From the IMG/VR virus record IMGVR_UViG_3300033552_000028, positions 1 to 38,657 of that record: 38,657 bases of DNA; one strand, given 5' to 3'. A program made the position numbers and the translations under genes. The notes below the pieces were generated by a model. That model saw only the letters and a program-made list of their open reading frames with translations, did no database searches and was not told the origin of the DNA. Positions 6,034-21,440 of the stretch are shown here, piece by piece; positions within the stretch are counted from its first letter, which is position 1; every line of letters starts with the position of its first letter. Source of the DNA: a virus.

Positions 6034-6215
6034 ACAATCCCACCCCTACGCCATCCAGCAGGCATCGGCTTGCAGGTAACGCAAATGCCGCAATTGACCG
6101 GGAATTGACCAATGCTGAATCGGCGCTGGCAGCTGGTGCATGCCTGGCGCTTCGTCACCGGGTCCGGCTGGTCGCGCATGTGGTCGCGGTTAATGCTGGT
6201 GCCGGCGTTGTTCAT
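6030..6215 (-). CDS. Small Cys-rich protein
   Basis: A 61-residue protein with two possible zinc knuckles, CTSC (about residue 26) and CGICVTC (about 42-48), in a basic context. The ATG at 6215 overlaps the methyltransferase stop (ATGA) and its stop overlaps the ninG start. Probably a zinc-binding nucleic-acid protein; no family recognised. Confidence 0.55.
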   Translation of the reverse strand: MNNAGTSINRDHMRDQPDPVTKRQACTSCQRRFSIGQFPVNCGICVTCKPMPAGWRRGGIV

Positions 6216-6871
6216 GCTGGCTCCGCGAAAATAGATGCCTGCTCTTGCTTGGCTGGCTCTGGGGCGAAAAGCTGACCTTGGGCTACAGCTTGTTCAATGC
6301 GCTTGCAGGCGATCTCAAAATAGGCGGGGTCGCGCTCGATACCAATGAACTTGCGGCCAAGCTGAATCGCCGCAACGCCGGTTGTCCCACTGCCCATGAA
6401 AGGATCGAGGATGGTTTGCACTTTCCCGGCCTGCTCGAGACACCAAAGCATGACTTTCAAGGGCTTTTGGGTGGGGTGCGCCTTTTCCTCCCCCGACCAG
6501 TGGTGCGATAAATGGCGAGTTTGCTTACCAAAGTTCGTCCATGCCATTTCACACTCGGAGAAACTGCGCCCGTCATTCAACTTGTGCCAAATTAGCCAGT
6601 CATTAGTTGGGGGGAGCTGTGCCGAAAAATAGTTTCCTCCCCAAAAGCAGGTGATCGGCGCTGCTGCAATGCACAGATCAAGGCTCGGCACGGATTCATC
6701 CCAGTCGCCACCACGGCTAAATTCCTTCTTGCCTTTGCCAAGCGTTTGCTTATTGGCGCTAATCCCATAAGGCGGGTCTGTAATCACCGCATCAACCTTG
6801 CCAAGAGTCGGCAGAATGTCCATGCAGTCGCCCAGGTAAAGCGTGGCGTCGCCAATGATTACCTTTGTCAT
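6212..6871 (-). CDS. Orphan DNA methyltransferase (N6-adenine/N4-cytosine type, β order)
   Basis: A 219-residue SAM-dependent amino-methyltransferase. The catalytic motif TDPPYG (31-36) comes before the SAM-binding motif DPFMGSGTTG (156-165), the order of β-class enzymes. HPTQKP (132-137) is also typical. The variable part in between (about 40-120) should hold the target recognition surface. No cognate endonuclease is visible, so it probably protects phage DNA or regulates replication/expression. Target sequence cannot be read from the protein. It overlaps neighbours on both sides by 4 nt. Confidence 0.9.
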   Translation of the reverse strand: MTKVIIGDATLYLGDCMDILPTLGKVDAVITDPPYGISANKQTLGKGKKEFSRGGDWDESVPSLDLCIAAAPITCFWGGNYFSAQLPPTNDWLIWHKLNDGRSFSECEMAWTNFGKQTRHLSHHWSGEEKAHPTQKPLKVMLWCLEQAGKVQTILDPFMGSGTTGVAAIQLGRKFIGIERDPAYFEIACKRIEQAVAQGQLFAPEPAKQEQASIFAEPA

Positions 6872-11490: not shown

Positions 11491-12126
11491 ATGATCGAGA
11501 TTCGCAACCGCTGGTCCGGCAACGTCATCTACACCCACAACGTGGAGGGCGCCACGATGGCTGATGCAGTGCGGGCGGCACGCGCCAGCGATGCCGACCT
11601 GCGCGGTGCCGACCTGAGCGATGCCAACCTGCGCGGTGCCAACCTGCGCGATGCCAACCTGCGCGATGCCAACCTGCGCGGTGCCAACCTGCGCGATGCC
11701 GACCTGCGCGATGCCAACCTGCGCGATGCCAACCTGCGCGGTGCCGACCTGAGCGATGCCAACCTGCGCGATGCCAACCTGCGCGGTGCCAACCTGCTGC
11801 CAGTTCGTGATGACATTTGGGCGGTTCTCTCGTCGGCCCCGCGTGAAGTGCCTGCGCTGATCGACGCGCTGAAAGCTGGTCGTGTGGACGGTTCGACCTA
11901 CGCAGGCGAATGCTCGTGTCTGGTTGGCACGATTGCAACGGCGCGCGGAAACGTATCAGTGGACTCGCTTGGCTCGCTTAAGCCGAATAGCTCGCGCCCT
12001 GCGGAACGGTTCTTTCTGGGTATCAGCAAAGGCGATACGCCAGAGACCAGTCAGTTTTCCAAACTCGCGCTCGATTGGGTGGCTGAGTGGCACGACACGA
12101 TGACTAAGGCTTTCGCGCCGAAGTAA
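11491..12126 (+). CDS. Pentapeptide-repeat protein
   Basis: A 211-residue protein. Residues 35-102 are about thirteen A-[DN]-L-x-x repeats, which fold as a right-handed β-helix. The N-terminal 30 residues and a C-terminal domain of about 105 residues ([44 protein letters not shown], then a Trp-rich end) flank it. Longer pentapeptide proteins such as MfpA and Qnr mimic DNA and bind gyrase, but thirteen repeats make only about three coils, so that role is doubtful. Good ribosome site (AGGAGAG) upstream. Well-expressed early gene of unknown function. Confidence 0.8.
11593..11796 (+). repeat. Tandem 15-bp repeats coding for pentapeptides
   Basis: About thirteen near-identical 15-bp units (variants of GCCAACCTGCGCGAT and GCCGACCTGAGCGAT). 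Low divergence suggests recent expansion or gene conversion, and copy number may vary by slippage. Confidence 0.9.
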
Positions 12127-16427: not shown

Positions 16428-16635
16428 CATTCACAAGTTCACGATTTACAACAGCGGCATGCCAGTCCTAATCAACCTCGACAAAGCGTTGGCCATCGCA
16501 CCGAGCGAATACCAGCAAGCGCGCTGCATTATTAGCCTTGGCACAAATGGTGCTGGCGAAGACCTTGATTACTACGTGCGCGAAACGTTTGAGCATGTCC
16601 AAGGATTGATCGCACAGAAAGGATTAGCACAATGA
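16420..16635 (+). CDS. Hypothetical protein, 71 residues
   Basis: MSNIHKFTIYNSGMPVLINL, with β-strand-like segments and a C-terminal helix (YYVRETFEHVQGLIAQKG). Good ribosome site AAGGAGA at 16408 onwards within the previous gene. No family recognised. Confidence 0.55.
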   Translation: MSNIHKFTIYNSGMPVLINLDKALAIAPSEYQQARCIISLGTNGAGEDLDYYVRETFEHVQGLIAQKGLAQ

Positions 16636-17126
16636 ATAAGCCGCAACCTGATTGCACCGTCTGCGGTGACTCCGGTACTTACTGCATCGGCAATAGCGGC
16701 GATGCATCCGATGGCAACGCGCCCCTGCTTGAGCGTTGCGACTGCGAGGCTGGGCAACCCGCCACCCCAGCGCAAGCCACCGCTGCCCCGACCGACCTGA
16801 GCGCGGCGATTATGGAACTTCGGTGCGAAAAGCCCGACTACGCAAACAGCGAGGCTCGCCAAGCATACTTGTTCGGTTTCATCACAGCCAAGAAAGCTGC
16901 TGCCGATCTGGTTCGCGCATCGCTCCCAGGTGTGCCGCAAGCGGAAGATGTGGCAAAGGATGCGGCGCGTCTGGACTGGCTCGACAAGCAGCGCGTCGGC
17001 TACGGCTTCGAGGGCGAACTAGAAGGCTACGAATGGCTGATGAATGGGCCGTATGCCTCGATTCGCGCAGCTATCGACGCCGCCATGCTCGCAGCCATCC
17101 CCACCACACCGTCAGGTGAAGCATGA
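16632..17126 (+). CDS. Hypothetical protein with N-terminal zinc-finger-like motif
   Basis: A 164-residue protein. The N-terminus has CTVCGDSGTYC and ERCDCEAG, a possible small zinc knuckle. An Ala/Pro linker follows, then helices and the 'DAARLDWLDKQRVGYGFEGE' block with IRAAIDAA, frequent in Ead/Ea22-like proteins of temperate phages. Function unknown. Confidence 0.55.
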   Translation: MNKPQPDCTVCGDSGTYCIGNSGDASDGNAPLLERCDCEAGQPATPAQATAAPTDLSAAIMELRCEKPDYANSEARQAYLFGFITAKKAAADLVRASLPGVPQAEDVAKDAARLDWLDKQRVGYGFEGELEGYEWLMNGPYASIRAAIDAAMLAAIPTTPSGEA

Positions 17127-17386
17127 GCGCCGACCTGAACATCGAAGCCGAGCGCGTGGCGTTTGAGGCCGAAGCCGACAAGTTGGCCATCCCAACCAAC
17201 TCAGTCGTCGCGTTTAATCTCTGGCTTGCTGCCCGTCGCGCCCCTGTGGCGAGCGCACCAGCGCTGACGTATTTGGAGCAGCTTGCAGTCGAAGAAACGC
17301 TCGCATGCGTGCAGGAGCATTCAGGCACGCCGCTGGCAAACAAGCTCAGCGCCATCATTGCGCGCATCACTGGGGAGGGGGAATGA
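17123..17386 (+). CDS. Hypothetical protein, 87 residues
   Basis: MSADLNIEAERVAFEAEADK, soluble and helical; the 'FEAEADKLAIPTNSVVAFNL WLAARRA' block is shared by many phage accessory proteins. It overlaps the QueD-like gene by 4 nt. Function unknown. Confidence 0.5.
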   Translation: MSADLNIEAERVAFEAEADKLAIPTNSVVAFNLWLAARRAPVASAPALTYLEQLAVEETLACVQEHSGTPLANKLSAIIARITGEGE

Positions 17387-17799
17387 GCTACGAATTGAGC
17401 CAAACATTCATGTTTGACGCCGCCCATACCCTGACGCGCACCGTGCCCCTGGTCGAGTTCACGCCAAGCCGCCGCATTCACGGTCACACCTATACGGCTT
17501 GCGTGACCGTGCGGGGCGATAAGGGCGCGGACGGAATGCTGCGTTTCATTCGCCTGCCAAAGAACAAGAGCGAAACTGTGGATTTGTTCTATTTGCGCAA
17601 GGCTTTGGACGAAGTGCGCGAGCAGCTTGACCATCGTTTTCTGGATGAAGTCGAAGGGCTTGGCGCTCCGACGATGGAAAACCTGTGCGAATTCATCTTC
17701 GTTCGCCTGAATGCCAAGTTCCCGGTGTCCTCGGTGTCGGTGTCCCGCGCTACTGGCGATTGCTGCACGCTGCGAGCGCCAGGAAAGGCGGAGTCATGA
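17383..17799 (+). CDS. QueD / 6-carboxytetrahydropterin synthase-like protein, catalytic residues altered
   Basis: A 138-residue T-fold protein of the PTPS/QueD family. Zinc ligands are present: H15 in FDAAH, H33 and H35 in RIHGHTY. D83-H84 (LDHRFL) and the pterin-binding PTMENL (96-101) are also kept. In E. coli QueD the catalytic Cys sits four residues before the HGH motif; here that place is Ser29. The Glu of the 'VKET' strand is Arg122 here (SVSRATGD). Normal QueD makes 6-carboxytetrahydropterin in the preQ0/queuosine pathway. With these changes it may catalyse another step on a pterin or 7-deazaguanine, or be a binding protein. The gene after it, overlapping by 4 nt, is a TGT/DpdA-like transglycosylase, pointing to 7-deazaguanine DNA modification. 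An insertion of about 12 residues (RFIRLPKNKSE) precedes TVDLFYLRKAL. Confidence 0.8.
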   Translation: MSYELSQTFMFDAAHTLTRTVPLVEFTPSRRIHGHTYTACVTVRGDKGADGMLRFIRLPKNKSETVDLFYLRKALDEVREQLDHRFLDEVEGLGAPTMENLCEFIFVRLNAKFPVSSVSVSRATGDCCTLRAPGKAES

Positions 17800-18554
17800 T
17801 TCATTATCACGGCTTGCCGATCACGCCAGCCACGGCAGCAGTACGCGCTGTGAGTGGCGGGCATGCATTCGTGTCGTTCCGGCACTCCGACCAGTTGACC
17901 GTTGCGCTGGATTGCGCGCAGTCGTTCGCGGTAGATAACGGGGCTTTCTCAGCCTGGCGTAGCGGCAACCCTATTACCGACTGGACGCCGTTCTACCGCT
18001 GGGTTGCGGAACTCTACCGTTATCCCACGTTCGACTTTGCTGTGATCCCTGATGTGATCGACGGTGACGAGGCGGCCAATGATGCCTTGCTGGACGAATG
18101 GCCGTGGCGCCTGTCCGCCCCGCACATCGGTGCGCCTGTGTGGCACCTACACGAATCGCTAGAGCGCCTGGATCGGCTTGTATCGCAGTGGCCGCGCATT
18201 TGCCTGGGTAGCTCTGGCGAGTTTGGGCAGATCGGCACGCAAGCATGGTGGACACGCATGGCGCAGGCAATGGACGTTATCTGCGATGCACAGGGTCGCC
18301 CTTTTGCGAAGTTGCATGGCTTGCGCATGCTCGACCCTGCGATCTTTTCCCGGTTCCCATTCGCCAGCGCCGACAGCACAAACATTGGGCAGAACATCGG
18401 GATTGATTCGGCATGGCGCGGCACCTACACGCCACCGACAAAAGAAGCACGCGCTGCAATCATGCGAGAGCGCATCGAGTCGCATCAATCGCTGAACGCG
18501 TGGGTGCGCGAAGCCGCCCCGATCCAAGAACCTTTATTTATGGACGCACCATGA
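17796..18554 (+). CDS. TGT-fold transglycosylase, DpdA-like (putative 7-deazaguanine insertion into DNA)
   Basis: A 252-residue protein with features of tRNA-guanine transglycosylase relatives. 'AVDNGAFSAW' (46-54) is at the place of the substrate-binding D-S-G-G-F motif, FAVIPDVIDG (81-90) and GAPVWHLHES (112-121) follow as barrel strands, then KLHGLRML (172-179) and FASADSTNIG (189-198), whose Asp193 is a candidate nucleophile. The C-terminal Cys4-type zinc site of tRNA enzymes is missing, and it is shorter than tRNA TGTs (about 370-380 residues), as are several phage DpdA proteins, which exchange guanine in DNA for a 7-deazaguanine. The QueD-like gene next to it supports a modification pathway with preQ0-type bases supplied by the host. 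Subfamily and target sequence cannot be told from the sequence alone. Confidence 0.65.
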   Translation: MIHYHGLPITPATAAVRAVSGGHAFVSFRHSDQLTVALDCAQSFAVDNGAFSAWRSGNPITDWTPFYRWVAELYRYPTFDFAVIPDVIDGDEAANDALLDEWPWRLSAPHIGAPVWHLHESLERLDRLVSQWPRICLGSSGEFGQIGTQAWWTRMAQAMDVICDAQGRPFAKLHGLRMLDPAIFSRFPFASADSTNIGQNIGIDSAWRGTYTPPTKEARAAIMRERIESHQSLNAWVREAAPIQEPLFMDAP

Positions 18555-19807
18555 CCACCAACACAACCCTACGCGCAGCGCTGGAAACGATTCAAGATAT
18601 GACCGATAGCGGCGATATTCACGACATGTGCGCCCAGGCTCTCGCGCTCACCCAGCACGATGACGAGGGGGCGGTAGCCGAATATCAGTACCGAGCCCGC
18701 GTCGATTGGCTCACAAGTTGGAGCGATTGGCAGAGGTGCTCCGAAGCAAGCTATCAGGACTACGTGCGCGCACCTCTCGTGAGCGACTTGCACTACGAAG
18801 TACGCACGCTCTACACCCGACCGGCTGATGATCCTGTCGATACTGCCACCCTCGCGTGGCTAACGCACGAAGCAAAACAGGCAGGTTTCGACTCCGTAAT
18901 TTCCGCAATCCTCGCCCACGGCAACCGACCGGCTGAGACTGCCGGGGCAGTGGATGCGCCGACCGAAGGATGGATCACCAACCTGAACGCTCGCAAACTC
19001 GCCAACCTGAATGAGCGCGGCTACAAGCCGGTAGGCACCATTCTGTGCAATGACAAGGGCGAATACGCACTGTTTGACAGTTCTTGCCGCTGGCTCACGA
19101 CTGCGCAATACCAGCGCTTGATGCACGAGCAGGACGGCTCACTGTTCGCCACCTCTCCTGCCGAGAAGGCCGGCACGCCGGTCAAGGACCACGTTATCCG
19201 TGAAGTCGTCAACACGCTGCGCGACATTGCAATCCAGTTCCACGGCACGCAGCAGCTACGCGAGCGCATTGCATACGCCATCGAGCCATTGCTTCCGAAG
19301 AAGGCCAGCGCGGAGCAGCACCACCCCCGACCAGCAGGGGAAATCCAGCAAAAACATACACTTAGCTCAAAAGATATGGCATTTGACCAGCAGTTGAGCA
19401 CCACCCTTTCCGACCATGCCAAGCGGGTGGGGAGCGCCGATGCGTTCGGATTTGCGCTAATGGAGCACCTTGGGCCGGATGCGCTTACAGGTGGCAAGAT
19501 GACGCCGATTCGCGCGTTTGAGCTTGGATGGGAAGCCAGGGGCCAGCAAGCAGGCGATGCGCTGGATGGGCGAAACCTTGGCGCACTGCACGAAGCGATT
19601 CAGCAGGCGTGCGCCGAATTGCCCGAGAAATGGAGCGTCGATATTACGCTCGAACGCGGCTGCGGGGCAGTCTATGTAGTCCAGCCAAACGGCGACATGA
19701 TCGCAATCGACGGTGAAGGCTACTTGTCAGATGATGTAATCGAGGCATTGGGCAAGGCCAAGGACATGGCTGCTGCTCGCGCTTCGGCTGCGAAAGAGGG
19801 GGCGTGA
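18551..19807 (+). CDS. Large modular accessory protein, 418 residues
   Basis: MTTNTTLRAALETIQDMTDS... made of helical blocks with linkers; internal pieces such as ARVDWLTSWSDWQRCSEASY, VNTLRDIAIQFHGTQQLRER and SVDITLERGCGAVYVVQPNG look like separate domains. Ea22-like mosaic character. Start chosen for the ATGA overlap with the transglycosylase gene. No catalytic motif identified; the position right after the modification genes is probably coincidental in a row of accessory genes. Confidence 0.5.
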   Translation: MTTNTTLRAALETIQDMTDSGDIHDMCAQALALTQHDDEGAVAEYQYRARVDWLTSWSDWQRCSEASYQDYVRAPLVSDLHYEVRTLYTRPADDPVDTATLAWLTHEAKQAGFDSVISAILAHGNRPAETAGAVDAPTEGWITNLNARKLANLNERGYKPVGTILCNDKGEYALFDSSCRWLTTAQYQRLMHEQDGSLFATSPAEKAGTPVKDHVIREVVNTLRDIAIQFHGTQQLRERIAYAIEPLLPKKASAEQHHPRPAGEIQQKHTLSSKDMAFDQQLSTTLSDHAKRVGSADAFGFALMEHLGPDALTGGKMTPIRAFELGWEARGQQAGDALDGRNLGALHEAIQQACAELPEKWSVDITLERGCGAVYVVQPNGDMIAIDGEGYLSDDVIEALGKAKDMAAARASAAKEGA

Positions 19808-20336: not shown

Positions 20337-21440
20337 ATGGGTCGAGCACGGTTAGCAAAGAATCGAGGGTTCCCGCCGAATTTGTATCTCAATTCGGCAG
20401 GGTACTTCTATTACGTCCACCCGCACAGCAAGAAGGCGAAAGGCCTAGGCCGGGACAAGGCGCACGCTTTTGCCGAGGCAAGGGCGACCAATGCAGCGCT
20501 TGCCAACCTGAAACCGTCGTCGCTGACCGATTGGGCGATGGGCAAGAAGGATTACACGCTCGCTGAGTGGGTGCCGCTGTATAAGACCATGTGGATCGAG
20601 AAGACAGAGCCGGCCGACAACACGCTGCGCAATGCGTCTGGCTATCTCAAGCGGATCGCCGCGGCTCCGTGCGCCTGGATGCGCTTGGGCGACATTGGCA
20701 CGGCACATGCCGCGTTGTTCCTTGAGGCGATAGAGCAGGAGAGCGGGGCAGCGACCGCTATTCTCGTCCGAACACGTATGCGCGACGTTTTCCGAATGGC
20801 CGAGACTCAAGGCTTGATTGAGCAAGGCAAGAATCCGGTCAGCGCCACATACACGCCAGATCGCACCGTGAAGCGCGAGCGGCTGACCTTGGAGCAGTTT
20901 CACCTGATCCGAGCGAAAGCGCCGTCATGGCTGCGTAGCGCGATGATACTGGCATTGCTGACAGCGCAGCGCCGGGACGATATCACCAACATGCTATTTT
21001 CCGACTACAAGGACGGCTTCTTGTACATTGCACAAGGCAAGAGCGGGGGCGCGGTCAAGCTACAGCAGGACGGGCTAATCAGGTTGCAAGCGGCAGGAAT
21101 GTCCATTGCCGACGCGATTGCCGAGTGCCGGGATTCGGTCGTTAGCCGTTATATGGTGCATCACTCTGCTTACTCGGGCAAAGGGACGCCGGGGAAGAAA
21201 GTCAACAGTAATGGCATATCGACTGCCTTTACCAAGTGGGCAGAGGCGGTCGGGATCGTAGCCGAGGAAGGCAGGACGCCGCCCACGTTCCATGAGATTC
21301 GCAGCCTGTCCGAGCGGCTTTACAGGGCTGAGTACGGCGCAGAGTTTGCCCAAGCCATGTTAGGCCACAAGAATGCGAGCATGACCGCAAAGTATGACGA
21401 CATGCGCGGGCAGGGCTATCAAGTGATTGCGGCCCGCTAA
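20337..21440 (+). CDS. int: Tyrosine recombinase integrase, λ-Int-like
   Basis: A 367-residue integrase. The N-terminus (MGRARLAKNRGFPPNLYLNS) is an arm-binding domain like λ Int, followed by core-binding (about 70-175) and catalytic domains. Catalytic residues are R212, K235, H319, R322 (HEIR), H344 (LGHK) and nucleophile Y353. R212 and K235 have the same numbers as in λ Int, so the two proteins are collinear there. It recombines phage attP with a host attB. As last gene of the rightward operon it would be made mainly while that operon is active. The attP candidate begins about 70 bp after its stop. Confidence 0.95.
   Translation: MGRARLAKNRGFPPNLYLNSAGYFYYVHPHSKKAKGLGRDKAHAFAEARATNAALANLKPSSLTDWAMGKKDYTLAEWVPLYKTMWIEKTEPADNTLRNASGYLKRIAAAPCAWMRLGDIGTAHAALFLEAIEQESGAATAILVRTRMRDVFRMAETQGLIEQGKNPVSATYTPDRTVKRERLTLEQFHLIRAKAPSWLRSAMILALLTAQRRDDITNMLFSDYKDGFLYIAQGKSGGAVKLQQDGLIRLQAAGMSIADAIAECRDSVVSRYMVHHSAYSGKGTPGKKVNSNGISTAFTKWAEAVGIVAEEGRTPPTFHEIRSLSERLYRAEYGAEFAQAMLGHKNASMTAKYDDMRGQGYQVIAAR

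Follow-up and report, generated by a model that had tools for sequence, protein, structure and literature searches.

We analyzed a stretch of viral DNA of 38,657 nt (the window), which spans an IMG/VR virus record (IMGVR_UViG_3300033552_000028) from end to end. In it, a queD-like gene is followed by a gene for a DpdA-like guanine transglycosylase (Table 1). The overlap of 4 nt reported between the two genes in a first-pass annotation was confirmed: they have an ATGA in common, in which the stop codon of one and the start codon of the other overlap. Genes flanking the pair on both sides are coupled likewise, forming a chain of five overlapping genes, and we therefore regard the chain as a single polycistronic early stretch. 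The window also codes for Erf, SSB, NinB, NinG, O/P-like genes, a repressor, a terminase, and capsid genes. Together with the integrase, these indicate a temperate lambda/P22-like phage, so that the earlier description of a λ-like phage carrying an orphan methyltransferase was borne out. The methyltransferase is possibly a second DNA-modifying gene of this phage.

Table 1. Coordinates of the queD-like/dpdA-like pair and of other features of the window
Feature	Position	Strand	Details
Further upstream gene of the overlapping chain	16632-17126		
Small upstream gene (context only)	17123-17386	+	4-nt overlap with queD-like gene; no PHROG match
queD-like gene	17383-17799	+	ATG start, 138 aa; PF01242, E = 7e-23
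ATGA stop/start overlap, queD-like/dpdA-like	17796-17799	+	4 nt, read from sequence
dpdA-like guanine transglycosylase gene (TGT-like, P0002)	17796-18554	+	ATG start, 252 aa; phrog_887, 3e-71
Downstream accessory gene, phrog_20174 family (context only)	18551-19807	+	4-nt overlap with dpdA-like gene
Orphan N6/N4 DNA methyltransferase	6212-6871	-	PF01555, E = 1e-22
Lambda-type integrase with Arm-DNA-binding domain	20337-21440		

A PADLOC search of the phage for defence systems gave no match, and no tRNA genes were found in it. Burkholderiales are suggested as the host, a hint that comes from the kinship of the QueD and from one prophage-like capsid match. Elsewhere in the window, the gene at positions 11491 to 12126 contains DNA (about 11588 to 11800) that is 85 to 94% identical to Edwardsiella, Salmonella, and Bordetella phages. 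These phages are otherwise unlike the window phage, and some of them annotate a pentapeptide repeat protein; the segment is unusually conserved and looks mobile.

In a profile search, the window transglycosylase and the DpdA of phage 9g (2e-98) fell into the same PHROG (phrog_887), and hhalign aligned the two proteins with a probability of 95 and an E value of 1.7e-8. The alignment pairs D47, H174, and D193 of the window protein with the 9g motifs DSGAF, KVHGFG, and CDSS, so that H174 falls on the DpdA-type His (9g H196). All three residues are invariant among 37 relatives. They include the Asp residues of DNGAF and ADST, and the TGT-like active site proposed for this protein is therefore present. 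As had also been claimed, the zinc site of the tRNA enzyme is missing, with no C-terminal CxCxxC(...H) motif in the 252 residues. The common PHROG with 9g DpdA and the Asp/His/Asp signature uphold the assignment of this protein to the DpdA type rather than to the tRNA-TGT type. No Pfam or NCBIfam family was matched, including the TGT family PF01702 and the Pfam DpdA family PF23859. Since 9g DpdA also has no PF23859 match, this model covers another DpdA subfamily. The AF2 model (pLDDT 83, pTM 0.81) is a confident TIM barrel. Its neighbors in BFVD are phage queuine-ribosyltransferases, and its fold matches in the PDB are generic TIM barrels and the archaeosine TGT 1j2b; a PDB profile search using the alignment of the protein gave no match.

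The window protein thus has the TIM-barrel superfamily in common with bacterial tRNA-guanine transglycosylases (PF01702), but the missing profile match, the missing zinc site, and the DpdA-type His rule out that it is a tRNA TGT. The pair might still serve tRNA, with QueD lifting the supply of queuosine precursors and the TGT-like enzyme modifying host or phage tRNA, thereby aiding translation or evading tRNA-cutting defences. We consider this very unlikely. Superfamily membership and the PHROG name (queuine tRNA-ribosyltransferase) fit such a role, but the absent C-terminal zinc site, the short length of the protein, the alignment of H174 with the His of 9g KVHGFG, and the lack of tRNA in the phage do not, and the tested relatives, 9g and MED16, modify DNA (PMC6884629, PMC8306585). 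Relatives of the transglycosylase occur in 109 phage records, including those of the temperate phages BTP1, SfI, and SEN1. DpdA-like genes are common in these and other temperate phages, and the temperate setting to which the first-pass annotation pointed is not the novelty. The transglycosylase is under purifying selection, with a dN/dS ratio of 0.05 for pairs with estimable dS, synonymous sites being near saturation even so. Prophage homologues of it were sought in 300 genomes of Burkholderiales and in 369 at class level; none appeared, but the search had no positive control, and this negative carries no weight.

The product of the upstream gene matches the PTPS family PF01242 above the cut-off and misses the cut-off of the QueD equivalog TIGR03367 (57.2 versus 89.25 bits). 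Its AF2 model (pLDDT 88.6) has QueD/PTPS proteins as the best PDB matches, including 2oba/4ntk, and the predicted structure matches the QueD of E. coli and P. aeruginosa. Structure prediction and family searches, recommended earlier as a check on both proteins, thus returned a QueD/PTPS fold with PF01242 for one and a TIM barrel with phrog_887 for the other. The zinc and pterin-binding signature ascribed to the QueD-like protein stood only in part: the zinc His residues (H15, H33, and H35) are present, as is the D83-H84 dyad, but the catalytic Cys and the pterin Glu are missing. In E. coli QueD, Cys27 is catalytic and Glu110 anchors the pterin; the corresponding residues in the window protein are S29 and R122. 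The three zinc His residues and the Asp-His dyad are kept in all 67 distinct relatives. The Cys position (CxxxHGH) is occupied by Ser in 63 relatives, by Tyr in 4, and by Cys in none, and the Glu position is Arg in every one. The QueD of 9g, which complements E. coli, has both Cys and Glu. Judging from these alignments, the lack of Cys and the presence of Arg in the window protein are a trait of its subfamily. A decayed or pseudogenized QueD was ruled out by purifying selection (dN/dS of about 0.1 to 0.16 for pairs with estimable dS, synonymous sites again being near saturation) and by the same residues in sole chromosomal QueDs.

Such chromosomal QueDs occur across the Burkholderiales (loci L167 to L246; Aquabacterium, Curvibacter, Rhodoferax, and others), and the Ser/Arg subfamily is the housekeeping QueD of many members of this order. 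These proteins are 45 to 60% identical to the window QueD and have Ser and Arg at the same two positions. In contrast to the phage gene, the chromosomal one adjoins queE and not dpdA, and its product is without the insertion, some 12 aa long, that marks QueDs of the window phage's clade. In five Burkholderiales genomes that we checked, the Ser/Arg QueD is the sole PTPS and directly adjoins queE, and the same genomes also contain QueC and tRNA TGT. As the only PTPS, placed beside queE, in queuosine-competent bacteria, the Ser/Arg type has most likely kept QueD activity in variant form, and we predict that it probably functions in the preQ0 pathway. One record labelled as phage (MT835580, a human faecal contig; L085) also has a Ser/Arg QueD, in a queE-queD-queC run of bacterial type.

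Next, we considered the pairing of the two genes across viruses. IMG/VR was scanned with QueD motifs alone, so that the scan was blind to TGT. In all 80 viral contigs retrieved (many of them closely related, with 66 distinct QueD sequences in the set), a transglycosylase gene abuts queD, which rules out a chance neighbourhood. The order is queD first in 29 loci, of which 27 show an overlap of exactly 4 nt, and transglycosylase first in 51 loci, with the genes abutting or overlapping. QueDs that are 70 to 76% identical to that of the window are coupled to differing partners, namely those of the P0002, L002, or L003 type. The L002-type partner is about 41% identical to P0002. The L003 partner is a PF23859 DpdA (E = 7e-40), and hhalign found no detectable similarity between it and the window transglycosylase. 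When QueDs of phages and bacteria are placed in one tree, at least four (four to five) transitions between bacteria and phages are needed, with exact placements unsure given the few columns. The clade that holds the window QueD groups as sister to the housekeeping QueD of the Aquabacterium type, while the remaining phage lineages branch off at other points. By these sequence comparisons, the pair is a recurrent module that has been put together independently several times.

In two viral loci the pair is joined by queE, in the order queE-queD-dpdA (L123:3369-5073) or queE-dpdA-queD (L124:245-1970), which ties QueD to its own pathway, since QueE uses the product of QueD. Without queC, these three-gene operons would yield 7-carboxy-7-deazaguanine (CDG) unless host QueC acts. 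No QueC or FolE was found near any viral pair, the sole QueC being that of the bacterial-type locus L085. Seen from the transglycosylase, QueD is optional, because most close relatives are without it: 13 of the nearest 80 have an adjoining queD. Two phage records with a close TGT-like relative and no adjoining QueD (L005 and L007) have a weak, below-cut-off QueC-like PP-loop protein of about 350 aa (G780 42575-42781 and G782 43859-44065, respectively). The many relatives without queD, including those of BTP1 and MED16, would suit a scenario in which both genes are passengers, the transglycosylase using host preQ0 alone and QueD being a neutral capture. Nevertheless, independent captures always adjoin a transglycosylase, QueD is under purifying selection, and the translational coupling is conserved, which makes this scenario extremely improbable.

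The strict one-to-one coupling with a transglycosylase also fits a different role for the QueD-like protein. It may no longer make 6-carboxytetrahydropterin and may instead act downstream, where it could bind or edit a 7-deazaguanine (e.g., decarboxylate CDG) or serve the DpdA-like enzyme as a partner subunit. In 67 of 67 relatives the Cys is absent and the pterin Glu is replaced by Arg, which agrees with this role, and a 2023 study reportedly predicted a phage CDG decarboxylase, DpdL, which is said to be QueD-like. We still regard a downstream role as unlikely. The Ser/Arg type is the sole PTPS beside queE in the five queuosine-competent Burkholderiales, which need a CPH4 synthase, and the exchange of partners among unrelated DpdA types argues against a dedicated protein interface. 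It is decidedly unlikely that the Cys-less, Arg-anchored PTPS makes no 6-carboxytetrahydropterin and that some other step (base binding, editing, or handing-over) would let DpdA-like enzymes place an undescribed 7-deazaguanine or pterin-derived base in DNA.

Known systems offer several points of comparison. The DpdA of 9g (Nonagvirus) inserts 7-deazaguanine in plasmid DNA and does not complement the loss of tRNA TGT (PMC6884629). Its motifs correspond to those of the window enzyme (DSGAF/DNGAF, HGF/HGL, and CDSS/ADST), and 9g, too, encodes a QueD nearby. However, 9g has the full precursor pathway (FolE, QueD, QueE, and Gat-QueC) with a Cys/Glu-type QueD, whereas the window phage has QueD only, of the Ser/Arg type. 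The DpdA-only phages, such as Pantoea phage MED16 and Salmonella SEN1/SW9 (PMC8306585; third group in PMC6884629), have transglycosylases about 40% identical to that of the window over 90 to 98% (90% for MED16). Their precursor must come from the host, as in the window phage, and MED16 likewise carries a DNA methyltransferase, but they have no QueD. In virion DNA of MED16, a phage without preQ0 genes, dADG was found on about 0.13% of G, and most enzymes tested cut this DNA normally (PMC8306585). In the isolated Caulobacter phage DMCA (PQ480021; L084 5705-6726), which grows on the laboratory strain C. vibrioides CB15 and is therefore readily open to experiment, a short PTPS-family gene overlaps a transglycosylase gene whose product is 37% identical to that of the window. 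The DMCA PTPS similarly lacks the Cys and has the Arg, and FolE, QueC, and QueE were not found in DMCA. It differs from the window QueD in being shorter (98 aa), divergent, and barely above the Pfam cut-off, and the hosts of the two phages differ.

We think it likely that the pair in the window is a minimal 7-deazaguanine DNA-modification module. QueD stands at the branch point of the dihydroneopterin triphosphate pool, between folate and preQ0. Dihydroneopterin triphosphate would be made by host FolE, and the phage QueD would divert it from folate synthesis to 6-carboxytetrahydropterin, which host QueE and QueC would convert to CDG and then to preQ0. By bringing QueD alone, the phage would increase the flux into the host QueE and QueC steps. 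Early in infection, the DpdA-like enzyme would then swap the 7-deazaguanine into particular guanines of phage DNA. A later conversion of the inserted base may follow (e.g., to dADG as in MED16), and the outcome would be phage DNA shielded from some guanine-sensitive nucleases. Searches of the whole window for QueC, QueE, and FolE gave no match for any, in agreement with the first-pass annotation, and because the phage has none of them, it would rely on the host pathway. Given the low modification level in MED16, we argue that target sites are few, and we caution against expecting resistance to restriction in general, since the sparse modification of MED16 gave little protection.

In support of this module are the homology of both proteins, the signatures of their active sites, the coupling of the two genes and its recurrence across viruses, and the absence of the other pathway genes from the phage together with their presence in likely hosts. 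From these we infer catalysis by QueD, DNA as the substrate, which base is inserted, and the gain for the phage. Counting against it are the loss of Cys and pterin Glu in the whole set of QueD relatives when the complementing 9g QueD has both, the mostly queD-less closest relatives of the transglycosylase, and the sparseness of the MED16 modification.

Phages with 7-deazaguanine genes have been grouped into those with DpdA and the full pathway, those with DpdA alone, and those with pathway genes and no DpdA (PMC6884629). A class with DpdA and only QueD is absent from these three groups. Full-pathway and DpdA-only phages were already known (PMC6884629), and what is new relative to that grouping is the DpdA-QueD module, in which a Cys-less QueD has repeatedly been combined with DpdAs of differing type. 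That this combination arose several times independently suggests that the branch-point step of QueD limits precursor supply during infection. A QueD subfamily that is the only QueD in some Burkholderiales apparently works without the supposed catalytic residues, which poses a puzzle for enzymology.
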